A stretch of 41,939 bases of DNA from Spirochaetota bacterium (GTDB lineage Bacteria; Spirochaetota; GWE2-31-10; JAFGQB01). The notes under the pieces were generated by a model. That model had not been told where the DNA came from and did no database searches. It saw only the letters and a program-made list of their open reading frames with translations. The stretch is from assembly GCA_016935915.1 (NCBI GenBank), contig JAFGQB010000303.1, forward strand, positions 1-41,939. Reading direction: 5' to 3'. Positions 1 through 34,742 of this stretch are shown here, in pieces. Numbering within the stretch: position 1 is the first letter of the stretch; the number at the start of each line of letters is the position of its first letter. The position numbers and the translations under genes are program-made.

Positions 1-114
1 GTTCATTGCACCGCCGATATTAAATTCAAAAAATTTAAGTTTGTTGTTTTCATCTGATGATAAAAAAAATGCCGCATATAAAAATGCCAAGCATAAAATT
101 ATTTTTTTAATCAT
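1..114 (-). CDS. Partial secreted protein, N-terminus only
   Basis: The first 38 codons of a minus-strand gene run off the window edge. The ATG is at 114 and a GAGG ribosome-binding site lies at about 125-128. The residues begin MIKKIILCLAFLYAAFFLSS, a lysine start and hydrophobic core typical of a signal peptide, followed by a polar stretch and FFEFNIGGAMN. The latter resembles the first beta strand of an outer-membrane or secreted protein, but this is only suggestive. The function cannot be named from 38 residues. Confidence 0.6.
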   Translation of the reverse strand, partial: MIKKIILCLAFLYAAFFLSSDENNKLKFFEFNIGGAMN

Positions 115-194
115 TTATATAGATCCTCAATGCAACAATTATTAAATCAGCTTTTATAATATATATTTAAAATTTACATATTCATATATAACTT

Positions 195-222
195 ACTATA
201 TAATAATGGATTAAAAAATCAA
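195..222 (-). promoter_or_regulatory. Possible promoter for the partial gene at 114
   Basis: Read on the minus strand there is TTGATT (222-217), a 16-base spacer, then TATAGT (200-195), about 80 bases before the ATG at 114. The TTGATT followed by a T-run resembles the -35 region of the repeated galactan-locus promoters, but the upstream TTTAC boxes are absent. In so AT-rich a sequence this match is weak. Confidence 0.25.
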
Positions 223-313
223 TAAATATTTATAATAATAAAATTTAAAAAATTATTTAATGATATATTTTTTTATCTTAAAATAATATTGATCAGTCTT
301 ATATTGAATTTTT

Positions 314-336
314 ATAGACAAAAATTTTTTGTCTAT
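314..336. repeat. Perfect 11-bp inverted repeat
   Basis: ATAGACAAAAA at 314-324 and its exact complement at 326-336 are separated by one base. It lies about 53 bases beyond the stop of the DUF4340 gene. The stem is AT-rich and has no T-run of the right polarity, so it is a poor intrinsic terminator. It could be a protein-binding palindrome. Confidence 0.5.
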
Positions 337-11993: not shown

Positions 11994-13301
11994 ATGAAAA
12001 AATTTAATATTATTGTAATTATACTTTTTTGTAGCTATTTATGCTGTACCAATTACAATGAAAGTCCCATGACAAAAAGGCAGCTGTTAAAGAAAGATAC
12101 ATATCAAAAAACAGAAATAGTGGATAAGGTAACATGGAAGGACTATGACATCAAAGGAAGAGTAAAACAATTTACCAGAGCGGAATATAAAATTATAAAT
12201 GAAAGCGGTAAACTTCAAAAAAGATTTTACAGAAAACAGTTGGTAAATTTTGATGAAAACGGAAATATTCTGGATGCCGGTGATATTAATATAAACGGTG
12301 AAAAAACAGCACAAGGATTTTATGAATATGATCAAGAAGGTAAATTGCTGGAAGTGAAATCTTATAATGCTCAAGGCAGATTGATAGAAAATGTAAAATA
12401 TGCATATAATGATAAAGGCATTAAGATCAGGGAAGATAATTACAATGTTAATTTAGCTGTAAATACTGCATGGATATATGATGAAAAGGGAAATGTTATA
12501 GAAATGAAAGAATATTCAAAAGATATGCTAATTACTTATGTCAGGATGAAATATCATTATGAAACAAATGCACTTATCGAGGAAGATACAATGCGTTATA
12601 AACCCAGCGGAGAATTTAATTTCAGAGAGATCACAAAAAACAACAGATACGGAGTAATATTAAGCAGATATAAATATAAGGATAAATTCAAAACAAAACT
12701 CGAAATTAAAGAACTGCATAATTATGACAGCAGAGGTTATGAATCAAAATTATATATACAAGCTTATGGTACACGTCCTAAAACCTGCATATATAAAAAC
12801 ATATATGATGATAAAGGATTTTTGATAAAAAGCACTTCAGCTTTTTATACATGGATTTTTAAATATGACATCAGGGGCAATCAGATAAAAAAAACCTCAT
12901 ATACATCCCAGGATTATCTTGAGTTTGAAATTTACAATGAGTATGATATTGATAACAACATGATAAAAGAAACAAAAATAGAGTACGACAGAAGTCCGGG
13001 TGCAGGTATAAACAAAAAAACAATAAATTTTTATGATAAAGAAGGCAGACTAATAAAATGGGCAAGATACGGAGGTAGAGTCGGTGATGAACTCCTTTAT
13101 GAACACCAGACCCTTTATAATGATAAAGGAATAATGACTGAACAGGTTATAGACAGCCCAGGGGACTCACGCCCGAGGATTAAAATCACCTATAAAGTTG
13201 ATTCATTGGGCAATATTTTGGAAAAAAGAGAGTATGCAATTTTTAATAATAGTGAAGAGTTGTTAACAAATATTTATGAATTTTCCTATTCATTTTATTA
13301 A
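11994..13301 (+). CDS. Secreted lipoprotein with YD/RHS-like repeats
   Basis: The 435 residues start with a lipoprotein-type signal (MKKFNIIVIILFCSYLCC, lipid cysteine probably C17 or C18). The mature part repeats a Y-D-x-x-G-x-x-x-x pattern about ten times: YDQEGKLLEV, YNDKGIKIRE, YDEKGNVIEM, YDSRGYESKL, YDDKGFLIKS, YDIRGNQIKK, YDKEGRLIKW, YNDKGIMTEQ. Such repeats build a beta-rich rod as in RHS/YD proteins, and no toxin or core domain follows, so this is a small stand-alone surface repeat protein. It has an AAGGAG ribosome-binding site and stands alone, divergent from the glycosyltransferase gene. The ligand is unknown. Confidence 0.72.
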   Translation: MKKFNIIVIILFCSYLCCTNYNESPMTKRQLLKKDTYQKTEIVDKVTWKDYDIKGRVKQFTRAEYKIINESGKLQKRFYRKQLVNFDENGNILDAGDININGEKTAQGFYEYDQEGKLLEVKSYNAQGRLIENVKYAYNDKGIKIREDNYNVNLAVNTAWIYDEKGNVIEMKEYSKDMLITYVRMKYHYETNALIEEDTMRYKPSGEFNFREITKNNRYGVILSRYKYKDKFKTKLEIKELHNYDSRGYESKLYIQAYGTRPKTCIYKNIYDDKGFLIKSTSAFYTWIFKYDIRGNQIKKTSYTSQDYLEFEIYNEYDIDNNMIKETKIEYDRSPGAGINKKTINFYDKEGRLIKWARYGGRVGDELLYEHQTLYNDKGIMTEQVIDSPGDSRPRIKITYKVDSLGNILEKREYAIFNNSEELLTNIYEFSYSFY

Positions 13302-13370: not shown

Positions 13371-13407
13371 AAAAAAAGGTCAACTAATATTAACATTAAT
13401 TGACCTT
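13371..13407 (-). terminator. Intrinsic terminator of the permuted GH53 gene
   Basis: On the minus strand AAGGTCAA (13407-13400) pairs with TTGACCTT (13383-13376) and is followed by a run of T. It starts 57 bases after the stop of the gene at 13464. It may also help stop the convergent lipoprotein gene. Confidence 0.7.
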
Positions 13408-13463: not shown

Positions 13464-14399
13464 TTAGTAAGACCATGTATATCCAGCTGCTTCCATTTCT
13501 AATAGCCATGATATATCTGCTCCATGCGGTCTGCCTGATGTAATAGCATCGGTGAATTTATGTGTTGCCGGATCGCATGCATCCCAGGTATAACCCTGAT
13601 ATCCTTGCGCCTCTGGCTCCCAGTAATATACAGTTCCTATACTTTTTGCTCCATTGATAAAAGAAGCTGCACCTGATGCAAATCGCTCACATCCGATTTC
13701 ACAAACTGTATAACCTCCGCCCATTCTGCTGGCAGTGCTTTGAGCTGCACTTAAGTTCCCTGTTCCGTATATTGACATACCTTTACTTACACTTACACCA
13801 TTAGAACTTAAGATTCCGAAATTCCATGAATGCAATGAATAATCCTGACCATTGGAAATATGAACCAGAGAGCCTCCTCCTGCTTTACCTGCTGCAACCA
13901 AACCTGCATATTGTGAAGGATTTGTATCTGCTTTTCCGACAGGCCATAATAAACCATTGTTTGTTTCATTTCCAATCTGTTTTACACCGGCGCTGATCGT
14001 TGACTGCATATACGAAGTTACTTTTGATCTCAAACTATTATAATCAGTTGGCCAACCTGACGGTATAGTCTGTTTGCCTGGATCTGCCCATGAATCACTG
14101 AAATGAACTGAGAGCAATGAACAGCCGCCCCATCTGTTTGCCAATTCCTGATTGTGACTGGTATCACACCATCCGCTTCTTGTCCAGTTCCTAAGTCTTA
14201 ATCTGCTGACACCGTAGCTTTTTAAGATAGCGATGCATGTATCACCATTGCTTGCTCTGATAAGATCAGTATTATCCAAAACATCTAAATCTGATGAATT
14301 GATGTTCTGTGCCCCGTCATCAAAAGGATTACAGTTGAAAAAAATTGATAATGAAACAAACGTAATAATCACCAATAAAACAATAAAAAGTTTTTTCAT
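13464..14399 (-). CDS. GH53 galactanase, apparently circularly permuted lipoprotein
   Basis: The 311 residues begin with a signal peptide whose probable lipid cysteine is C23 (FFNC, a relaxed lipobox). GH53 features follow: GDTCIAILKSYGVSRLRLRNW (about 52-72), FSDSWADPGKQ (100-110), IGNETNNGLLWPVG with acid/base Glu145 (142-155), TVCEIGCE with probable nucleophile Glu234, and YYWEPEAQGY (258-267). The normal first strand of the family (GADIS plus MEAxGYTW) is absent from the N-terminus and instead forms the last residues: GADISWLLEMEAAGYTWSY (293-311). Joining end to start restores the canonical order, which indicates circular permutation. Length is near the usual GH53 domain. It would hydrolyse beta-1,4-galactan. 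It has its own promoter (copy b) and terminator. Confidence 0.8.
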   Translation of the reverse strand: MKKLFIVLLVIITFVSLSIFFNCNPFDDGAQNINSSDLDVLDNTDLIRASNGDTCIAILKSYGVSRLRLRNWTRSGWCDTSHNQELANRWGGCSLLSVHFSDSWADPGKQTIPSGWPTDYNSLRSKVTSYMQSTISAGVKQIGNETNNGLLWPVGKADTNPSQYAGLVAAGKAGGGSLVHISNGQDYSLHSWNFGILSSNGVSVSKGMSIYGTGNLSAAQSTASRMGGGYTVCEIGCERFASGAASFINGAKSIGTVYYWEPEAQGYQGYTWDACDPATHKFTDAITSGRPHGADISWLLEMEAAGYTWSY

Positions 14400-14451: not shown

Positions 14452-14547
14452 ATTATAGTTAAAGGTTTTAAAGAATTCAATTAAAATAATTTAGAAAAAG
14501 TAAAGAATTTGTACATATTTATATTAAAAAATTATAAAAAAGTAAAT
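14452..14547 (-). promoter_or_regulatory. Composite promoter element, copy b (permuted GH53)
   Basis: On the minus strand: distal box (GTAAA complement 14542-14546), 42 bp, proximal box (14500-14504), then -35 TTGAAT at 14480-14475, exactly 17 bases, and a perfect -10 TATAAT at 14457-14452, about 53 bases before the ATG. This copy has the best -10 of the six. Confidence 0.75.
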
Positions 14548-14659: not shown

Positions 14660-16993
14660 TTATTTGGAAATTATTTCAACCATATACTCAGGTTCAATTT
14701 CGACTTTTTTTATCCTGCAGGCTATTCCATTAATAAAATGGGGCTTAATGTCAAAACATATATCATCTTCTTTTGTTAACGGAATTAATTCTACAACAAT
14801 TTCTCTTTTTTTTTCTAAGACCTCTCTGTAGCGCTTCAGTCCGACTTCCAGAACTTCTCCATTAAAAAAATAATCGATTATTAATTTTTCATCAATATAA
14901 ACTTCAGCAGTATTGCATTCCAAATGGAGTCTTAAATAAATTTCATTTGCATAATACATATTATTAAATAGATCCTTTTGGAATTTAATTGACCAGCTGT
15001 TTTTATCTTTGCCATTTTTATTTTTTTTTTGATCAAATTTTATTTTATTGATTTTATCCTTATGAATTTTTATCCTGGAATAAAACAATTTTTTCTCATG
15101 TGCCAACATTTTATTGTTATAAAAAAAATTTATATCTTTATTCGGATATATCAAAAAATTCTGTTCAGCTTTTCTATCTGTGCTTATGATTCTGTTGTTC
15201 TCAAAAACTAAATCTGAATCCGTTATAATCAACCGTTGTTCAGTTAAATCATTAAATTTCCAGACTTTTAATTCATGCTCATTTTTTAATAACAATATCT
15301 CGATTGATTTATCAGTTTTTGATTTTATTTGAATTAAATCATCCGTATCTTGATTGCATTGATAAATAATCTCACTTTTATTTATTACAAATTTACCATA
15401 TTTTGCTTCTATTGTTACAATGGAATCTTTTTTAAAGTAAAAAACCGGTAAAATATCAATGCATTTTAAAAATATATAAGTTTTAATATCATTATTATTT
15501 AAAATGCAGAGAGGCTGAGCTTTGGCAAATATTAAAACTATATCATCGAGTTCCAGATTAAAAGGCCAAAAAAAATAGCTGTCTTTTTTTAATGTAAATT
15601 TTCCGAAATTTATAGCCTTTTTATTTATATTAACAGTTAAATCGGCATTTATATCTTCCATTTTATATTCACGCTGATAATTATTAAAGAAAACAAATCC
15701 GCTGTAATCACAACTTCTCACTGCATATCTTAATGTTTTTGTATCATAAGGAGTATCAGGAAAAATATCAGGAAAAGTTGTCTGCATCGTTGCAAGTGTT
15801 TCTGAATAATCATTTATAAAATAATGAAGTATTTTTATATATCTGTATGAATCAGAAATTTGGCCGTACATTCTCACAGGTGCCTGAAAGTCATAAGATA
15901 GTTTTGGAACAGTAGTCCATTCCCCTGCTTCTTTAGATTCATTTAAATAGCCATTTTTACCTTTTGGATTGATACCTCCGCTGAACATATAATATCCAAG
16001 AAATACCGCACCGCTTCCCAGCTGAACAAAAATATTTGAAGATACATCTTTAGGTTTTAGTAACGGTCTTCTTGAATATGTCAAGCATATTCCGCCGCCC
16101 ATTTCACACATAGTAAAAGGATATTTTTCTGGATCAAAAGCTGATTTAATCAGTCTGTGAGCTGTGGGACTTGTATAATTAATTACATCTCCGGAAGCTT
16201 TTCTGAATAAAAACTCAACAAACAAGGGAAGTTTAAATGTACTTTCTGCCCAGGGATGCGTAGAATAATTTGAAAGAACAGGAAGCAATTCTTCATCAGG
16301 AATTTTGGCACCCCCCCAGCCTGTTATTGTATATAGGGGAACATCATAACCAATATCAAGAATAAGTTTTTTTAATGTCAATAAATGATCAATTGAACCT
16401 TCGGCACCGCCGCAGTGACCGTATTCATTTTCAATTTGAACTCCGATAACAGGTCCGTTATCCTTAAAAAATTGTCCTTTTATCTGTTCATATATCTCTC
16501 TGTAAAATATCGCAACATATTTTAAATATTCAGGATTATTTTCTCTTACTCTATTGCACTTTTTAATAAGCCAATAAGGAAATCCCCCGTTTCTTACTTC
16601 ACCATGTCCCCATGGACCGACTCGTAAAAAAACATATAAACCTAAATCACAACATAATCTGGTAAAAGCTTTCAGGTCATTGTCCTTTTTCCAGTTCCAT
16701 TCACCTTCATTTTCTTCATGAAAAATCCAAAAAATATTTGTCGCCACTATCGTCAATCCGCATGTTTTCATCTTTAATAAAAAATCTTTCCAGAACTTAT
16801 GATCACATCTTGAAAAATGAAATTCCCCCATTAGAGGAAACCAGGGTTTGCTGTTTTTTTCATAATAAACATTATTAAGATTAATTGTATTTCCTTCTTT
16901 ATCTTTGCCGCCGAGATATCCGAAACAGTTTTTTATTATTTTTTTATGATTCTTTGAATCTATTGTAATTGTATAATTCTTGAATACATTCAT
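14660..16993 (-). CDS. GH35 beta-galactosidase
   Basis: This 777-residue protein without signal peptide should be cytoplasmic. The GH35 barrel is clear: WFPLMGEFHFSRCDHKFW near 51-68, NIFWIFHEENEGEWNW near 86-101, LRVGPWGHGEVRNGGFPYWL near 123-142, acid/base Glu190 in VQIENEYG, and nucleophile Glu297 in FTMCEMGGG. The C-terminal ~350 residues are beta-rich, very AT-rich and less familiar. It removes terminal beta-galactose from oligosaccharides. Its ATG overlaps the stop of the upstream GH53 gene by four bases. It is the last gene of the operon that starts at 27275; I see no clear terminator after it. Confidence 0.9.
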   Translation of the reverse strand: MNVFKNYTITIDSKNHKKIIKNCFGYLGGKDKEGNTINLNNVYYEKNSKPWFPLMGEFHFSRCDHKFWKDFLLKMKTCGLTIVATNIFWIFHEENEGEWNWKKDNDLKAFTRLCCDLGLYVFLRVGPWGHGEVRNGGFPYWLIKKCNRVRENNPEYLKYVAIFYREIYEQIKGQFFKDNGPVIGVQIENEYGHCGGAEGSIDHLLTLKKLILDIGYDVPLYTITGWGGAKIPDEELLPVLSNYSTHPWAESTFKLPLFVEFLFRKASGDVINYTSPTAHRLIKSAFDPEKYPFTMCEMGGGICLTYSRRPLLKPKDVSSNIFVQLGSGAVFLGYYMFSGGINPKGKNGYLNESKEAGEWTTVPKLSYDFQAPVRMYGQISDSYRYIKILHYFINDYSETLATMQTTFPDIFPDTPYDTKTLRYAVRSCDYSGFVFFNNYQREYKMEDINADLTVNINKKAINFGKFTLKKDSYFFWPFNLELDDIVLIFAKAQPLCILNNNDIKTYIFLKCIDILPVFYFKKDSIVTIEAKYGKFVINKSEIIYQCNQDTDDLIQIKSKTDKSIEILLLKNEHELKVWKFNDLTEQRLIITDSDLVFENNRIISTDRKAEQNFLIYPNKDINFFYNNKMLAHEKKLFYSRIKIHKDKINKIKFDQKKNKNGKDKNSWSIKFQKDLFNNMYYANEIYLRLHLECNTAEVYIDEKLIIDYFFNGEVLEVGLKRYREVLEKKREIVVELIPLTKEDDICFDIKPHFINGIACRIKKVEIEPEYMVEIISK

Positions 16994-18069
16994 TCTTTTT
17001 CCCAGCCTTTAATACCTAAAGTGGCTTTTGCATTATCGTCAAAAAGAGATCTGCATGATGCATCATCGTCATTCCAGTTTGCTTTAAGCCATTTTACGCC
17101 AACAGTGCTCTGACTCCATACCGCTCCCCAATACATTATTCCTGCGCACGATGGGTAGCTTGAAGCTTTTCTCTTAATATCTTTCATAAATTTCAGCTGT
17201 CCCTCCTGGTCCTGGGGGTAATCATGAGTAAACCTCCCTGCATCACTCTCCTTCCAGTAAGCTGCTGTTTCAATAATCCATACCTTATAGCCTGTATTTT
17301 CAAAACTCTTTATCCTGTAGCCCAGAGTTTCAATGCTTCCATGCCACATTAAATAATGAGAAATGAAACAGACATCAAATTTAGCACCAGCCTTTTTCAT
17401 ATCTCTAAACCATGACCATGATCCTTCCGCAGAATGAATGCCCACAGGAATAGAAGCAGAGACTGACTTTACTGCATCATAACCTTTTACGATCAATTTT
17501 ACCTGATTAGAGCCAAATTTAGAACACATTTCATTGTCAATCTCATTTCCGATTGAAACCATATCGATATTTTCTGCACCGATTTCTTTAATTGTTTCAC
17601 ATGTGTAATTATAAAGCATCTCTTCCAGTTTTGATTGGTTCAAAGGCCAATTTGAAGGCTTAAAGTTCTTTCCCGGGTCACACCAGTCATCGGAATAAAA
17701 AAATACCAGTAAAACTTTTAAATTCCTTGATTTTGCCTCTTTGATTACACTCTTTACATATCCAGTGGTCTGATAAAGCCCTGAGTTAGATGGCGGATCA
17801 ACCAGTATTCTTATTCTGATCCAGCTGAACCCATGATCTTTTAAAATATCAAGATAATGCTTTACTTTTCCGTCCAAATCCTTGTATTTAACACCTTTGT
17901 CCTGTGCATATTTTCCCTCGGATATGTCAGCTCCAAAAGGGAGTTCTATATAATTTTCAGTATGACTCTTATTTAATCTGTTATCATTTTTTTGAATATC
18001 AGCATAAAAAAAATTAATTATCAAAAAGAAAAATAAAAAAAATGAAAACATTAAAATTCTTTTTTTCAT
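16990..18069 (-). CDS. GH53 endo-beta-1,4-galactanase, exported
   Basis: The 359 residues carry a signal peptide (MKKRILMFSFFLFFFLIINF, cleavage probably after FYA). GH53 motifs in normal order: PFGADISEGKY near 44-54, YLDILKDHGFSWIRIRI near 72-88, FFYSDDWCDPGKNFKP near 123-138, SIGNEIDNE with acid/base Glu176, VWIIETAAYW with nucleophile Glu267, and GIMYWGAVW near the end. MYWGAVW replaces the usual FYWEP, so this is a divergent subgroup, perhaps with a different preference at the subsites. It is translationally coupled to GH35. It should act in the periplasm or outside the cell, unlike its operon neighbours GH35, GH42 and GH112. Confidence 0.87.
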   Translation of the reverse strand: MKKRILMFSFFLFFFLIINFFYADIQKNDNRLNKSHTENYIELPFGADISEGKYAQDKGVKYKDLDGKVKHYLDILKDHGFSWIRIRILVDPPSNSGLYQTTGYVKSVIKEAKSRNLKVLLVFFYSDDWCDPGKNFKPSNWPLNQSKLEEMLYNYTCETIKEIGAENIDMVSIGNEIDNEMCSKFGSNQVKLIVKGYDAVKSVSASIPVGIHSAEGSWSWFRDMKKAGAKFDVCFISHYLMWHGSIETLGYRIKSFENTGYKVWIIETAAYWKESDAGRFTHDYPQDQEGQLKFMKDIKRKASSYPSCAGIMYWGAVWSQSTVGVKWLKANWNDDDASCRSLFDDNAKATLGIKGWEKE

Positions 18070-18127: not shown

Positions 18128-20203
18128 TTAATTTTTTACTAAAACTAAAACATCTTTTTTATCAATTTTGATTTTTCCGCTAAACAATTTACCGGATAAT
18201 AAATCAATGAAATTTTCCTTAAAAAATTCAAACTCTAAGCTCATATCATTAAAATTAAGTATAAAATAATATTCCTTGCCTCTCTTTATTCTTAAGAATA
18301 CTTCCACTTTATCTGGAGTTGAAAACGGCTGAAGCAAACATGCTTCATTGCATAAACTCTTAAAAAAGTCATTCATGAATGATTCATCAGGTCTTGTTGA
18401 AATATAGTATGCTTTCCCTTTACCAAATTTGTTTTCAGTAATGCACGGTAAATCTGCATAAAAATCATTTTTATATACCGCTATTTCCTTTGCAGTTACT
18501 GCATGAACCACTTCTGCCCATAATGTACAGGAATACTCCTGTCTTAGCTTCAAATCTTTTTTTTCCTTAATAACAATATAATTTTTATCATCAGGCATCA
18601 ACGGGTCAAATTCTTCGATCTTTATACCCATCAAATCCTTTAATGGTCCCGGATACCCCCCCAAAAACACTGTTGAATCCTCATTAAGGACTCCGGAAAA
18701 ATATGTTAAAATTAATATCCCGCCATTATTGACATAGTTTTCCAATTTTTCTTTATAATTCGGTTTAATAACATGAAGCATGGGAGCAATTATTATTTTA
18801 TAATCAGTTAAATCAGAATTAAAAAAAACAATATCGCATGCCACATTTAAATTGTACAATGAGTTAAAATAATATTCGATTTCAGCAAAATAACCGATGC
18901 ATATGCTGGGAAAAGGCTGAGTGAAGTTTGCCCAAAAAACTGAATTGTCAAATGATCGAACACCGGATCCGTACGGTGTTTCAATTGCCCACCAGCTGTC
19001 ATTATCCATTAAAATTGCTGCTTTTGCATTGTTATCAGAGCCGATGATTTCCTTGATCTTTTCAAGTTCTTTTCCAAGTTCCATAATTTCTTTGAATACT
19101 CTTGACTCATCTCCGTAATGAGGCACCATTCCGCTGTGATATTTCTCAACTCCTTTTTTTTGCGCTCTCCATTGGAAAAACATTACAGAATCAGAACCAT
19201 GTGCAATTGCATGATAGCTGAACAATCTCATAACACCGGGTCTTTTTGCTACATTAACAGGATACCAGTCCACCTGTGAAGGCGCCTGTTCCATCAGCAT
19301 AAAAGGTTTCTTTTTTAATCCCCGCATCATGGCATGTCTTAAAGCAACCCGCCATTGAGCATAAGGGTCACTGGGGTTAGGGTAGCAGTTCCATGAGACA
19401 ACATCAAGATAATCCTTAAAACTCGAATGATCGAAATTCTTAAAATCGCCCTCAAAGTTTGTTGTTACCGGAATATCCGGGGTTATTTTTTTAATAACAT
19501 CATATTCGTTTAAATAACATCTTAAGAAACTTTCACTTATAAATCTTTTATAATCCATTAATTTAGATGAATTTCTGGGACCGCTTGAGGTTTTCGGAGC
19601 ATTGATATCTTCCCAGTCAAAATAATATTCTCCCCAGAGCTCTGTCCCCCAGGCTTTATTTAAATTTTCAATTGTCTGATATTTTTCTCTGCACCATTTA
19701 ATAAATTTAGTTTCACATGTTGAGCAAAAACACGCCTTTGTCTTCTGAGCATATTCATTATTTATATGCCATAAGGCAAGAGCCTTATGATCTTTATATC
19801 TTAATGCAAATTTTTCTGTCAAAAGTCTGCTGAACTTTAAGTAACTGGGACTGTTGGGACAATATGTCTGGCGTGAACCGATATTCAATTTTAATCCGGA
19901 TTCCAATACAGGTAGTATATCATCATATTTTTTTGTCATCCAGACAGGCTGAGCTGCCGAACTCGTTGCAAGGCACACATATATATCATTTTCAGCCAGA
20001 AGATCCATGATTTTATCAAGCCATTCAAATGTATAAGTATTTTCATCCCTTTGCAAAAGAGCCCAAGAAAAAATAGCAATACTTACTAAATTTACATTTG
20101 CTTTTTTCATCAGTCTGATATCATCCTGCCATACTTCCTCTGTCCATTGTTCAGGAAAATAGTCCGCACCAAATAAAATTTTTGGAATCTTTTTAGTTAT
20201 CAT
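18128..20203 (-). CDS. GH42 beta-galactosidase
   Basis: About 691 residues, no signal peptide. GH42 features: GADYFPEQW near 12-20, acid/base Glu in HINNEYAQK (about 150), zinc-site cysteines C115 and the CFCSTC cluster (about 158-163), and nucleophile Glu305 in FMLMEQAPSQVDW. A trimerisation domain and small C-terminal beta domain follow. I chose the second ATG of the frame (20203), because an AGGA lies eight bases upstream and the first codon of the frame is TTG. It cleaves terminal beta-galactose from galacto-oligosaccharides produced by GH53; GH42 plus GH53 is a common partnership. It sits six to nine bases after the GH112 gene. Confidence 0.93.
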   Translation of the reverse strand: MITKKIPKILFGADYFPEQWTEEVWQDDIRLMKKANVNLVSIAIFSWALLQRDENTYTFEWLDKIMDLLAENDIYVCLATSSAAQPVWMTKKYDDILPVLESGLKLNIGSRQTYCPNSPSYLKFSRLLTEKFALRYKDHKALALWHINNEYAQKTKACFCSTCETKFIKWCREKYQTIENLNKAWGTELWGEYYFDWEDINAPKTSSGPRNSSKLMDYKRFISESFLRCYLNEYDVIKKITPDIPVTTNFEGDFKNFDHSSFKDYLDVVSWNCYPNPSDPYAQWRVALRHAMMRGLKKKPFMLMEQAPSQVDWYPVNVAKRPGVMRLFSYHAIAHGSDSVMFFQWRAQKKGVEKYHSGMVPHYGDESRVFKEIMELGKELEKIKEIIGSDNNAKAAILMDNDSWWAIETPYGSGVRSFDNSVFWANFTQPFPSICIGYFAEIEYYFNSLYNLNVACDIVFFNSDLTDYKIIIAPMLHVIKPNYKEKLENYVNNGGILILTYFSGVLNEDSTVFLGGYPGPLKDLMGIKIEEFDPLMPDDKNYIVIKEKKDLKLRQEYSCTLWAEVVHAVTAKEIAVYKNDFYADLPCITENKFGKGKAYYISTRPDESFMNDFFKSLCNEACLLQPFSTPDKVEVFLRIKRGKEYYFILNFNDMSLEFEFFKENFIDLLSGKLFSGKIKIDKKDVLVLVKN

Positions 20204-20212
20204 CAAATCATC

Positions 20213-22396
20213 CTACTTGCATAAATTATTAATTTCATCAAGATCAAACCATTTGATCTCAAGAGAATCCAGCTCTATTTTTGTCTGTTTTCCCGACTCA
20301 TTATAGATCACCGTATCCTCTGCATCATAATCATTATTCATTACAGCAATTCTTTTTGTTTCAGGATAATAAGCGCAATCGGTTTTTTCGTTCGAGGAAA
20401 ACCATTTTTTCATACTGCTTTCCTGACCTGCTGCCCAATATACAGCTCTCAGCATCATTCTGATATTGTCATAATCAAAATTATATCCGGCAAAATATAC
20501 GCTTCTCCCTTTTCCGAAACTATTTGCCGAAAGAAGAACATTATCAAAAGTTCCACTCAAAAGCTCTGCCGATTGTTTTGAAAAATATATTGAAGGAGTT
20601 ATGAATTTAAAGCTGAAATCATTCTTTATATCTTCAAGTATAAAATGTTTATTATTTATTTGGGGTTTTATATTTTTACTCCATGCCAATGTTAAACCTG
20701 TTTCTTTTTGAACGCCCAATACATCAAACAACTGAAAAAATCTACCCTGATATTCAAAGGCAGTAGGCTCGTTTATACCGATAAATCCTCCGCCGTTTGC
20801 TACAAATTCCCTTATGTTTTCAACCACTTTAGTATCTGTCCAATGATCTCCTCCGCTCCATGAAGTATAAGCATTGCCCCAGTTTAAAATGACTTTAATA
20901 TCCATGGAAATTCCTTTTCTTATATCATCAAAATTAATGAATTCAAGTTCAACAGGGAGTCCCGCCAGAATCTCAGCAACACAGCCGTAAGGCCAGTTTT
21001 CCTGCTGTATCCATGTCCTCGATCTGCCCCATGCATTTAAAATTGCAAGTTTGCCTTTAAAGCTTGAATATGGTATACTTTTTTTTGTATTATGCAATAC
21101 TTCCCTGAATTCATCAGCCAGTTTTTCAACATAATCAATAAATTTTGGATATTTAACAGCAAGCTCAAGATATCCGCCAAAACCTATTCTGTCAACGCAT
21201 CTTCTTAAAAGTCCTCTCCTGATTTTTTTCCACCATTTTTTACACTCTGCCACTGGATCCCCGTTATCTTTAAAAACAGGCTCATCCTGAAGGTTCACTT
21301 CAAAAAAATATGGATATAGCCTCACTTCTTTTATCGAATCACCCGGTACTTCAGCTATCCTTCTTAATTCAATGGCGCTTAAACAAGGTCCAACAATCCC
21401 GTCAAATTTCATATCTTCAAATCCCTCTCTGTATGGCTCTGTCCCTATCCAGTGATCGCAGAAGAATAAAAAAGCCTTCTTACCATTTTTATGTGTAATA
21501 TCAACAAGTTCTTTTGAAAAACCTCTTATAAACTTCATTGTAAAATCGATCCAGTCCAGATATTCTTTCTTTGGAACTGTATAAGTAGCATTCATATAGC
21601 CTGCATCAACAAGATGTTCGGGCAGCAGTCTGTAGCCGTATTCTTTTTCAAATTCATCAAGTGCAAAAGCACTTGTACAATCATGGAAGCCGCTCCAGTC
21701 TAGAAAAACATTTTTTCTCTCTTCATTTTTAATCAATGGAAACTGATAGGCGATTGAAGTAAAACGGACATAATCGGAATCAAGATGTTCCATAAGCCAT
21801 TTTTTATAATACTCGATTATATGCTTATAAGCTTCAGGCTGCCTCGGGTCAATGCCTGCTTGATGTTCGCCTGTCCATTTATTTGTTATGTAATTGTACA
21901 TAGATGTGGATTCCCATATCTGATGAACCAGAAAAGATACAGTATAAACATGCCATTTATTGGCTTTTTTTATGACTAATTCACAACTTTTTTCATTAAA
22001 TTCCCAGTCTCTAGCAGATACAGTTTTTCCGCTTGTACGATCATTTACCTCCCAGTATTTTTTAGGAGAATGTTTGATGTCAATTTTAAACTGTTCATGG
22101 CTGTACCCTTTTAAAATTTTTATTTTTAATTCAGAAGATTCGGCTGTTATCGGAAATGATATCAAATATTTCTGCTGACACATGTCCATGTGATCTTTTA
22201 TCCATTGTTGATCTGATCTTATTAAACATAGAGTTGAATAAACAGTAAGTCCAAGTGAGAGAATATCCTGAGACAATGTTGTTCCGTCGCTGTCTCTGAT
22301 TGTGTCAACTCCCCATCTTTTTGCAAGCATTTTAACCTCTTCTTCCAAGTTAGCCTGTGCAGGAAGAGTAAAATGGCCTTTTGTAATTTTTTCCAT
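20213..22396 (-). CDS. GH112 beta-galactoside phosphorylase
   Basis: The 727-residue cytoplasmic enzyme shows GH112 motifs: KGHFTLPAQ at the start, RWGVDTIRDSDGTTL near 27-41, FLDWSGFHDC near 231-240, and FFCDHWIGTEPY (311-322), whose Asp314 falls where the catalytic acid of lacto-N-biose phosphorylase lies. A glutamine-amidotransferase-like domain and beta domain follow. GH112 enzymes split a beta-galactoside with phosphate, giving galactose 1-phosphate. Known specificities are galacto-/lacto-N-biose (beta-1,3) and D-galactosyl-beta-1,4-L-rhamnose. Among galactanases the rhamnose form is attractive, because galactan side chains of rhamnogalacturonan I are joined to rhamnose O-4. That choice is inference. 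No galactose-1-phosphate enzymes are in the window. Confidence 0.9.
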   Translation of the reverse strand: MEKITKGHFTLPAQANLEEEVKMLAKRWGVDTIRDSDGTTLSQDILSLGLTVYSTLCLIRSDQQWIKDHMDMCQQKYLISFPITAESSELKIKILKGYSHEQFKIDIKHSPKKYWEVNDRTSGKTVSARDWEFNEKSCELVIKKANKWHVYTVSFLVHQIWESTSMYNYITNKWTGEHQAGIDPRQPEAYKHIIEYYKKWLMEHLDSDYVRFTSIAYQFPLIKNEERKNVFLDWSGFHDCTSAFALDEFEKEYGYRLLPEHLVDAGYMNATYTVPKKEYLDWIDFTMKFIRGFSKELVDITHKNGKKAFLFFCDHWIGTEPYREGFEDMKFDGIVGPCLSAIELRRIAEVPGDSIKEVRLYPYFFEVNLQDEPVFKDNGDPVAECKKWWKKIRRGLLRRCVDRIGFGGYLELAVKYPKFIDYVEKLADEFREVLHNTKKSIPYSSFKGKLAILNAWGRSRTWIQQENWPYGCVAEILAGLPVELEFINFDDIRKGISMDIKVILNWGNAYTSWSGGDHWTDTKVVENIREFVANGGGFIGINEPTAFEYQGRFFQLFDVLGVQKETGLTLAWSKNIKPQINNKHFILEDIKNDFSFKFITPSIYFSKQSAELLSGTFDNVLLSANSFGKGRSVYFAGYNFDYDNIRMMLRAVYWAAGQESSMKKWFSSNEKTDCAYYPETKRIAVMNNDYDAEDTVIYNESGKQTKIELDSLEIKWFDLDEINNLCK

Positions 22397-22498: not shown

Positions 22499-23563
22499 TT
22501 AAAATTCAGAAAATACCTCTAATGAATCAAGTGCATTGCCTTTAAAATCAAACAACAGCATATTGCACCATTCATTACCCTCACCGTATTTCCAGCCAAC
22601 TCCGTCAACCTGTATAAAACCCGGTTCCCAGTAAAATATTCCTTTTCCTCTTCCATCCGGTATTTTTTTAACAATATTTACAAGTCGTCTTAAAAAGTCC
22701 TTCTGTCCTTCAACCGAAAATGGGATATTGATGTGTTTGGCATCATCAGCCTTTATTAAATATATATCCTTATTTTCCTCTGTCCAGCCAAAAGCAGTTT
22801 CAGCTATAATAATATCTTTTTTATATCTTAAAGCCATATCATTCAAATTATTTTGCAGATCATTAAATCCTGTTGACCATTTCGGATAAAATGAAAAGCC
22901 GATAATATCAAAATCAACGTTTTTGAATAATAAATTATCAAAAAAATCTCTTGACGACTTATTATTACAACTGTCGCCTCTATGAATCATTACTTTTATT
23001 TTGTTTTTTTTTGAAACACTGTCATGAACAGCAGTTATACCGCTTTTTATCAACTGACAAAACCTGTCCCATTGCTTAACCGTACCATCAATTTTACCGT
23101 CATCCCACAACAAACCATTATCAATTTCATTTCCGATCTGAACTATATCGGGAAGCAGATTTTTTTTATCAAGGGCTGTAATTACATCTTTTGTATACTC
23201 ATAAACCTTTTCTTTCAATTGATCAAATCTAAGATCAAGCCAGTCATTTGGTTTATACTGTTTCTGCGGATCAGCCCAGAAGTCACTGTAATGAAAATCC
23301 AGAAGGAATTTCATGTTCATTTTTTTTATCCGCTCTGCCATTTTAATAACATGATTTTCATTGTTATAACCTTCAGGATATGAAAGAGGAGGACCAGGAT
23401 TATTCCAAATCTTAAGTCTGAAAGTATTGAAACCGTAATTTTTCAGGATTTCCATTAAGTCAATCTCTGTTCCGTTGTGATAAAATTTACCTCCGAAATC
23501 CTCAATTTGGTCCAGAGTCGAAATATCGGCCCCGATTAATTCCAGTTTACATTTTTCTATCAT
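22499..23563 (-). CDS. GH53 galactanase, cytoplasmic form
   Basis: The 354 residues lack a signal peptide, which is unusual for GH53. Motifs: LIGADISTLDQIEDFGGKF near the N-terminus, LLDFHYSDFWADPQKQY near 87-103, QIGNEIDNGLLW with acid/base Glu146, IIIAETAFGW with nucleophile Glu255, and GKGIFYWEPGFI near 305-320. It lies 19 bases after the solute-binding protein gene and 102 bases before GH112. Cytosolic location implies it trims imported longer galacto-oligosaccharides down to galactobiose and galactotriose for GH42 and GH35. Confidence 0.92.
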   Translation of the reverse strand: MIEKCKLELIGADISTLDQIEDFGGKFYHNGTEIDLMEILKNYGFNTFRLKIWNNPGPPLSYPEGYNNENHVIKMAERIKKMNMKFLLDFHYSDFWADPQKQYKPNDWLDLRFDQLKEKVYEYTKDVITALDKKNLLPDIVQIGNEIDNGLLWDDGKIDGTVKQWDRFCQLIKSGITAVHDSVSKKNKIKVMIHRGDSCNNKSSRDFFDNLLFKNVDFDIIGFSFYPKWSTGFNDLQNNLNDMALRYKKDIIIAETAFGWTEENKDIYLIKADDAKHINIPFSVEGQKDFLRRLVNIVKKIPDGRGKGIFYWEPGFIQVDGVGWKYGEGNEWCNMLLFDFKGNALDSLEVFSEF

Positions 23564-32846: not shown

Positions 32847-34742
32847 TTATTTAATAGGCACCAGTTCAAAATCATCGATAGTACCCCAGTTTCCTCCAGC
32901 TGCATTGCAGTACAAACCTATAGTCAAAGTCTGGCTCGCATCTACATCGATCTCAATCACATATTGATGCCATTCGGGCCATACAGTATCTTTTATATCT
33001 TTCTTTTTTGTCACTGCACCGCTTGTTGCATAGAAATAATATTCAAATTCACCTCCGCCTCCTTCTGTCCAAACTGAAACTCTGTATTTACCCGGCTTTA
33101 AACCTGCAATGGTCTGAAAAGCTTTGAATTTAAATCCTGCAGGTGCCCAGAAGCCCAAAGCATACTTGCCTGTTCTGACATTGCCTGCTTTTGTTTCCAT
33201 CTCATCCTTAATACCGTCCGCAGGATCAAATTTCCAGCCTGATTTATCACCAAGTTCAAAACCCGGGTTCTGAAGCAGTGAAACCGAAACATTGGCTTTA
33301 ACTTTAACACTTGAATCTTTTACACTGCCCTGAACAACGAATTCAGCACCACCTTTATCATATTCCTTTGGATCGATTTTATCCCATACAATCTGTACCG
33401 GTTTTAAACTGTCGCTTGTATGCCATGCATTTACCGTATCTGGAAGTACAGGTGCGACCTTTGCATTTGTCGTAACGCTTATATCCGGAACAGAGACAAG
33501 ATCATATTTATATTTTTTATTCTTTTCATTAACCAACAGATATGTCCAGATTGATTCAAGAGGCTTGCCGTTTTTATCCCACCATGCCATATTGTCCCAT
33601 GCATTACCCTCACCAGTAATCCAGCCGCATCCGTCAACAGGTATCCAGTCCGGTTCCCAGTAGAAAACTCCCAGACCTCTATCCCTTGGAACCTGTGCAA
33701 CTGCAGCCATAATATCTCTCATACATAAAGCCTGCCCCTGAACAGTAGCTTTATAACCGCCTCTATTCTGTCCATCTTCAGAAAACATATTATCATGCTT
33801 ATCTCCATTTTCAAGGGTGTAAGCATAAGCAGTTTCAACTACTATAACCGGTTTTTTGGTTTTTGCTGTTATATCATTTAAATTTTGAATTAAAGAATCT
33901 ATAGGCTTGTCCCAGAACGGATAATATGATAATCCGATAATATCATAACTAATAAAAACATAATCAAAAAAATATCTCGAATCCAGATTGTTTCCGCCGT
34001 CAGGTATATGTATCATAACTTTTGTTTCAGGAAGAACATCTTTAACCGCTTTTGACGCATTCTTTAATAAATTAAAAAAAGCAACCTTCTGTGAGGGGAA
34101 ATGCCCTACCGGCCAGCAGATTCCATTCTTCACTTCATTGCCAAGTTGAACTATTTCAGGTGCGATATTTTCATTTTTTAACTCAATTAAAACTGATTTT
34201 GTATAATCATAAATTGCCACTGCCATTTTTTTTGCGTTTAATTTTTTCCATGCATCAGGAATCATCTGGTTTCCCGGATCAGCCCAGAAATCACTGTAAT
34301 GAAAATCAAGTAGAACCTTCATCCCCAATGCTTTTGCTCTTTTACTTATCTTTTTTACCATGGCAAGATCGCAATTCCCTCCGCCAACCGGATCTCCCGG
34401 TTTAACATTGGTTAATTTTCGATTTTCTATCATTTCCTTTGAAAATACTGGATTGTTCCAGAGCCTTAGTCTGATATAATTTACCCCTTTATTCTTTAAG
34501 ATTTCCAAACAATCCTTTTCTTTACCGTCGGTATCGTAAAATTTTCCACTATTTTTTTCAATTTGATTCAACATTGAAACATCAACGCCTTTGATAAAAT
34601 CAGGACTGATATTGTCAATCGAATCGATTTTAATGCTCAAGTTAACAGGCGGAGTATCCGCTGCATATAAATTAATTATCTGCATACTGAAAAATAATAT
34701 TAAAATCAAAACAAATGCATTTTTAAAAAAAGATTTTTTCAT
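32847..34742 (-). CDS. Secreted multidomain GH53 galactanase with Big4 and CBM
   Basis: The 631 residues comprise a signal peptide (cut near LYA-AD, residue 27), a full GH53 domain (about 45-405), a bacterial Ig-like group-4 domain (about 418-488, VWDKIDPKEYDKGGAEFVVQG) and a jelly-roll carbohydrate-binding module (about 491-631, QNPGFELGDKSGW to GTIDDFELVPI). GH53 landmarks: KGVDVSMLNQIEKNSGKFYD, LLDFHYSDFWADPGNQ, LGNEVKNG with acid/base Glu203, VVETAYAYT with nucleophile Glu303, and GVFYWEPDW. The CBM fits a CBM61-like galactan binder by context, which is inference. It should be the main extracellular endo-galactanase. It is a single-gene unit with promoter copy e and a terminator. Confidence 0.94.
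   Translation of the reverse strand: MKKSFFKNAFVLILILFFSMQIINLYAADTPPVNLSIKIDSIDNISPDFIKGVDVSMLNQIEKNSGKFYDTDGKEKDCLEILKNKGVNYIRLRLWNNPVFSKEMIENRKLTNVKPGDPVGGGNCDLAMVKKISKRAKALGMKVLLDFHYSDFWADPGNQMIPDAWKKLNAKKMAVAIYDYTKSVLIELKNENIAPEIVQLGNEVKNGICWPVGHFPSQKVAFFNLLKNASKAVKDVLPETKVMIHIPDGGNNLDSRYFFDYVFISYDIIGLSYYPFWDKPIDSLIQNLNDITAKTKKPVIVVETAYAYTLENGDKHDNMFSEDGQNRGGYKATVQGQALCMRDIMAAVAQVPRDRGLGVFYWEPDWIPVDGCGWITGEGNAWDNMAWWDKNGKPLESIWTYLLVNEKNKKYKYDLVSVPDISVTTNAKVAPVLPDTVNAWHTSDSLKPVQIVWDKIDPKEYDKGGAEFVVQGSVKDSSVKVKANVSVSLLQNPGFELGDKSGWKFDPADGIKDEMETKAGNVRTGKYALGFWAPAGFKFKAFQTIAGLKPGKYRVSVWTEGGGGEFEYYFYATSGAVTKKKDIKDTVWPEWHQYVIEIDVDASQTLTIGLYCNAAGGNWGTIDDFELVPIK

Follow-up and report, generated by a model that had tools for sequence, protein, structure and literature searches.

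Few natural circular permutations are known among TIM-barrel glycosidases, and GH70 against GH13 is the textbook case. The GH70 glucansucrases are permuted relative to GH13 and to non-permuted GH70 enzymes, and represent a natural circular permutation of a glycoside-hydrolase (β/α)8 barrel (PMC9732880). Transaldolase and class I aldolase are likewise TIM barrels related by circular permutation (PMC2213659). In the GH53 barrel the acid/base lies on β4 and the nucleophile on β7 (PMC8447715). In the open-access literature that we searched, no permuted member of GH53 or of clan GH-A was found described, which agrees with the first-pass annotation of this DNA, where a permuted GH53 had been called an undescribed form. 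Here, we report that P0001, a GH53 gene within the window (the whole stretch of 41,939 nucleotides that was analysed), almost certainly encodes a genuine circular permutant of the family. Its features, and those of its surroundings, are collected in Table 1.

Table 1. Positions of features in the window and of the second permuted gene.
Feature	Position	Strand	Basis
Terminator-like hairpin with T tail, 3′ of the P0001 stop	13376..13407	(-)	14-pair stem, then TTTTTATTTA
Circularly permuted GH53 gene (P0001), probable galactanase, 311 aa	13464..14399	(-)	open frame; PF07745 78.9 bits, profile 27-205
P0001 residues 293-311 (GADISWLLEMEAAGYTWSY), transposed strand β1 and start of β1-α1 loop, C-terminal	13467..13523	(-)	sequence blocks, rotation test, AF2
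P0001 residues 289-292 (GRPH), short linker from old C-terminus to old N-terminus	13524..13535	(-)	alignment A2
P0001 residues 50-288, barrel α1-β2-α2 ... β8-α8 (normally the second to last elements)	13536..14252	(-)	phmmer/hmm blocks, AF2 secondary structure
Glu234 codon, nucleophile by homology (CEIG, β7)	13698..13700	(-)	alignment; mechanism PMC8447715
Glu145 codon, acid/base catalyst by homology (QIGNE, end of β4)	13965..13967	(-)	alignment; mechanism PMC8447715
P0001 residues 1-49, putative export leader (hydrophobic stretch, FFNCNPF, then LDxTDxIRAS)	14253..14399	(-)	common to at least 18 other genes of the same genome
Promoter-like TTGAAT-17-TATAAT upstream of the P0001 ATG, not above chance	14452..14480	(-)	shuffle comparison
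GH35 beta-galactosidase	14660..16993	(-)	galactan locus context
GH53, normal order	16990..18069	(-)	profile 3-334, one piece
GH42 beta-galactosidase	18128..20206	(-)	context
Lacto-N-biose phosphorylase family protein	20213..22396	(-)	context
GH53, normal order	22499..23563	(-)	profile match
GH53 with C-terminal Ig-like domain, normal order	32847..34742	(-)	profile match
P0002, permuted GH53	L095:401-1570, genome G268		swapped profile blocks

The P0001 frame opens with an ATG and has no internal stops, and its PF07745 score passes the curated threshold (cut-off 24). This score comes from one partial Pfam match, in which residues 53-203 correspond to profile positions 27-205. Because coverage starts at position 27, the first 26 positions, that is strand β1 and its loop, are absent from the N-terminus. 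The first-pass annotation had noticed this absence and had placed the missing strand in the last 19 residues instead, and the segment does lie exactly at 293-311. Comparison by phmmer with the GH53 protein of contig C57 of the same genome gave three ordered blocks that amount to a circular shift, with residues 288-310 of P0001 matching 53-75, 54-207 matching 83-276 and 254-286 matching 348-379. Against the Bacteroides thetaiotaomicron galactanase (BtGal; 6gpa/6gp5) two matching blocks were found in swapped order, and the majority of residues in the P0001 tail are identical to those of 6gpa strand 1 with which they align. For a rotation test, the C-terminal 22 residues of P0001 were placed first, with 1000 shuffles of the moved piece as a control. 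With a clade profile built on six relatives of normal order, P0001 scored 89.1 bits as it stands and 118.2 bits after rotation (+29); with a general profile, drawn from 73 sequences of normal order, the two scores were 72.7 and 90.7 bits. With either profile, 0/1000 shuffled segments reached the rotated score. Moving the segment to the front thus restores the family order, as had been proposed. Moreover, a profile in the rotated order gives a single, stop-free match on P0001 (2-313 of 315), and on normal-order BtGal-like members finds strand 1 separately, upstream of the core. P0001 is therefore one whole domain in rotated order, with no second β1 N-terminally and no remnant of a second GH53 copy 3′ of its stop. 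The other three GH53 genes of the window were also taken to be of normal order, and profile comparison bears this out (L004 matched 3-334).

The annotation had suggested a search for homologues with the same order, and this yielded a second case, P0002. Its genome, G268, is of the same phylum as the source but of another family and is 99% complete; the gene lies inside a contig of 332,872 bases, two genes downstream of a normal GH53. The profile match of P0002 is swapped (hmm 25-325, then 2-25), rotation gains 35 bits, and the rotated-order profile matches at 2-314. Its match to 6gp5 is also swapped, the moved piece alone giving an i-E of 0.0043. In both proteins the break falls in the β1-α1 loop (P0001 ...YTWSY / NGDTC...; P0002 ...MFYESE / TQADC...), and their leaders and linkers differ, with P0002 having the longer linker.

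AlphaFold2 modelled P0001 (residues 44-311) as a full TIM barrel (pLDDT 84.1, pTM 0.86), in which the elements run α1, β2, α2, β3 and onwards to β8, α8, β1, with a short helix at the end. The GAD segment at the C-terminus is modelled as a strand (model residues 250-252, local pLDDT about 77-86), a placement toward which the model was guided by an input alignment carrying the strand-1 fragments of relatives at its C-terminus. A fold with this segment outside the barrel, which the first-pass annotation had named as counting against permutation, was not predicted. In the folded protein the moved β1 would probably pack between β8 and β2. The P0002 model (pLDDT 83.8, pTM 0.88) has the same order of elements and a C-terminal strand. 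Using Foldseek and VIA-align, GH53 structures rank first for both models. The P0001 model aligns with 6gpa_B at Z 26.2 (rmsd 1.9, 240 aligned), and GH53 structures fill its ten best VIA-align rows with Z of 20-26, the next families following at Z 14 (a predicted model). For P0002 the best solved match is again a GH53 (Z 33.6, rmsd 2.0, 278 aligned). Model residues 1..248 (P0001) or 3..329 (P0002) align with chain residues 68..351; outside the alignment lie just strand 1 and its surroundings, which stand at opposite ends of model and solved chain. Every solved GH53 that we found has β1 N-terminal in the domain, an order that neither P0001 nor P0002 shows.

We searched with the rotated profile or for GH53 in overlapping sets of genomes, namely 393 of the phylum, 274 of the G268 family, 395 of Bacteroidota and 314 from a single order of the Bacteroidota. 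These searches listed approximately 500 matches to GH53, from Bacteroidota and from the phylum of the source genome, and for 166 ORFs of the family the complete sequence was read from its locus. Permuted order was seen among them in P0001 and P0002 only. Several other candidates were rejected: G010 and G371, with late-starting PF07745 matches, are divergent normal-order or truncated proteins; G315 and G246 are of normal order, as are G401, G445 and G416 with their long matches to P0002; and in G1057 the match at 1-308 comes from two GH53 domains encoded in a single frame. Probable GH53 pseudogenes, with stops or split over two frames, were observed at G352:C1:2414180-2415209, G391:C7:43542-44047 and G258:C2:23356-23861. 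A contig scan with back-translated P0001 peptides returned no relatives, and no match spanning 80% of the query was found in phages and plasmids. The junction DNA pattern WEP[E/Q]...GADxSW gave three chance matches in genome contigs and none in viral contigs; this pattern is blind to P0002, owing to the longer linker, and is therefore uninformative on rarity.

Both permuted proteins fall in the BtGal-like clade, alongside Bacteroidota enzymes. It may be that they were permuted independently at the same loop rather than through one inherited event, and to this reading we give an even chance. In the unconstrained tree they stand apart among normal-order relatives, and forcing them together costs 8.2 log-likelihood units; the differing leaders and linkers point the same way. 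However, with a p-AU of 0.153 a single origin is not rejected, the fork containing both is unresolved and P0001 sits on a long branch, and the two break points agree to within a few residues. We tentatively suggest, while leaning somewhat against it, that the β1-α1 loop is a permutation hot spot that has been permuted more than once in the BtGal-like GH53 enzymes of this phylum, bringing the leader or anchor to the catalytic face. If so, with the leader or anchor no longer at the base of the barrel, a tethered enzyme could approach its substrate differently.

The standard route to a permuted protein is in-frame tandem duplication followed by a new start and stop (PMC2213659). For P0001, a GH53 domain would first have been duplicated in tandem and in frame; the first β1 would then have been lost, with the leader taking its place, together with everything after the second β1. 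A natural in-frame tandem duplicate was observed at L232:1214-3442 (G1057:C90), where two GH53 domains share one frame of 743 aa. A duplication intermediate can thus exist, though L232 is of another GH53 clade, and no tandem GH53 precursor was seen within the BtGal-like clade. The resulting P0001 chain would run from the leader into helix α1, through β2-α2 to β8-α8, and across the GRPH linker to β1. At the bottom of the barrel this linker would connect the former chain ends, β1 would take its slot between β8 and β2, and the new ends would lie in the β1-α1 loop at the catalytic face. Taken together, the sequence makes it very probable that P0001 is an exported endo-beta-1,4-galactanase of the BtGal clade of GH53, with a permuted (β/α)8 barrel, a kept active site and, probably, an origin in tandem duplication.

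As the annotation had it, Glu145 (GNE) and Glu234 (CEIG) are kept at these positions, aligning with the invariant Glu pair. The first-shell motifs RLR, HFSDSWADP, GNE and YYWEP are all retained, and with this active site P0001 should cleave pectic galactan, presumably by the ordinary retaining mechanism. P0001 is probably, then, a working galactanase. It could instead be a decaying or repurposed copy, too helix-poor for a galactanase and surviving as a binding protein or relic, which we consider unlikely. P0001 falls some 40-50 residues below the length of its relatives, with α3, α4, α6, α7 and nearby loops trimmed (alignment A2). Its branch is very long (2.0 changes per site) and its residue make-up unusual, while 7/38 core positions invariant among 16 relatives are changed or deleted. 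The short helices and long branch mean that reduced activity or loss of function is possible. Against decay, P0001 keeps the other 31/38 invariant core positions, far above the 58/189 variable core positions at which it has the majority residue, and all 5/5 invariant alignable positions of strand 1. In addition, the frame is open with a leader and terminator in place, the catalytic pair and first-shell motifs are intact, the barrel prediction is confident, and P0002 lacks the helix shortening of P0001. A real, secreted and working galactanase that arose by tandem duplication and loss of ends is the most likely reading of the sequence. We note that this unusually small barrel has Gly-rich turns (WGGCS, AGGGS and MGGGY) before β3, β5 and β7 (window 13536-14252).

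A misassembled tandem array of two GH53 genes had been raised in the first-pass annotation. More broadly, an assembly or binning artefact might have merged two GH53 genes, or a tandem array, into one in a metagenome-type draft contig. The source assembly, in which no 16S was found, has 310 contigs and is 78% complete, yet we regard this reading as highly improbable. The leader runs in frame directly into helix α1, the usual C-terminus is linked to β1, and a stop and terminator follow immediately. Third-position GC is alike across the three parts of P0001 (0.26-0.31). The same architecture and break in P0002, in the long contig of a second and separately assembled genome, is a strong argument against misassembly, and the lack of any second-copy remnant also counts against it. 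Of the expression signals claimed earlier, the terminator stands as a terminator-like hairpin, whilst promoter-like sites are no commoner than in shuffles, and a promoter is therefore unproven. Finally, the single partial Pfam match might suggest a GH53 truncated at its N-terminus and carrying a C-terminal tail, fortuitous or unrelated, that resembles strand 1, but this is scarcely credible given the identities of that tail with 6gpa, the shuffle control, the similar tail of P0002, its prediction as a barrel strand and the in-frame joining to α1 of a leader typical of the genome, which shows that the N-terminus is not a truncation.

This 49-residue leader follows a pattern in the source genome (G000) of MKK, a hydrophobic stretch, WF[SN]CNPF and then ...LNVLDxTDxIKA[ST]. 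It was observed on at least 18 other G000 genes on different contigs (window 14253-14399; loci L007, L011-L031), many of which were judged by eye to be pectate-lyase-like or other wall-degrading enzymes. In L007 (G000:C256:5347-5679) it stands on a different enzyme that is interrupted by the contig end. The Cys site does not conform to the usual lipobox, and the leader is a putative genome-wide export or anchoring tag. Around P0001, the window carries GH35, GH42, three more GH53 genes, sugar ABC-transport genes and a lacto-N-biose phosphorylase family protein, which we take to be of family GH112. These neighbours suggest a galactan-use locus. An RHS-repeat-like lipoprotein gene (window 11994-13301) is convergent with the P0001 gene.

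Four points go beyond the earlier annotation: a second permuted gene, the assignment to the BtGal-like clade, the trimming of the helices and the occurrence of the leader across the genome. Because profile tools return P0001 as a fragment, enzymes of this kind are easily thrown out as incomplete genes. P0001 may also indicate how far a GH53 barrel can shrink. The two permuted genes, their close normal-order relatives and the double GH53 form a compact system in which to ask by what route permutations come about and whether the products function. The closest solved relative of both, by sequence and structure, is BtGal, which shares their motifs and catalytic Glu pair; however, its strand 1 is N-terminal whereas theirs is C-terminal, and P0001 is without parts of four helices that BtGal has. 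The C57 GH53 (L003) is the nearest normal-order GH53 within the same genome and of the same BtGal-like clade, but differs from P0001 in its order and in its N-terminal leader. Transaldolase and aldolase differ by a shift of two units, and theirs is not a glycosidase permutation. The GH70 enzymes act on alpha-glucans, belong to clan GH-H and have a different break point, whereas GH53 belongs to clan GH-A.
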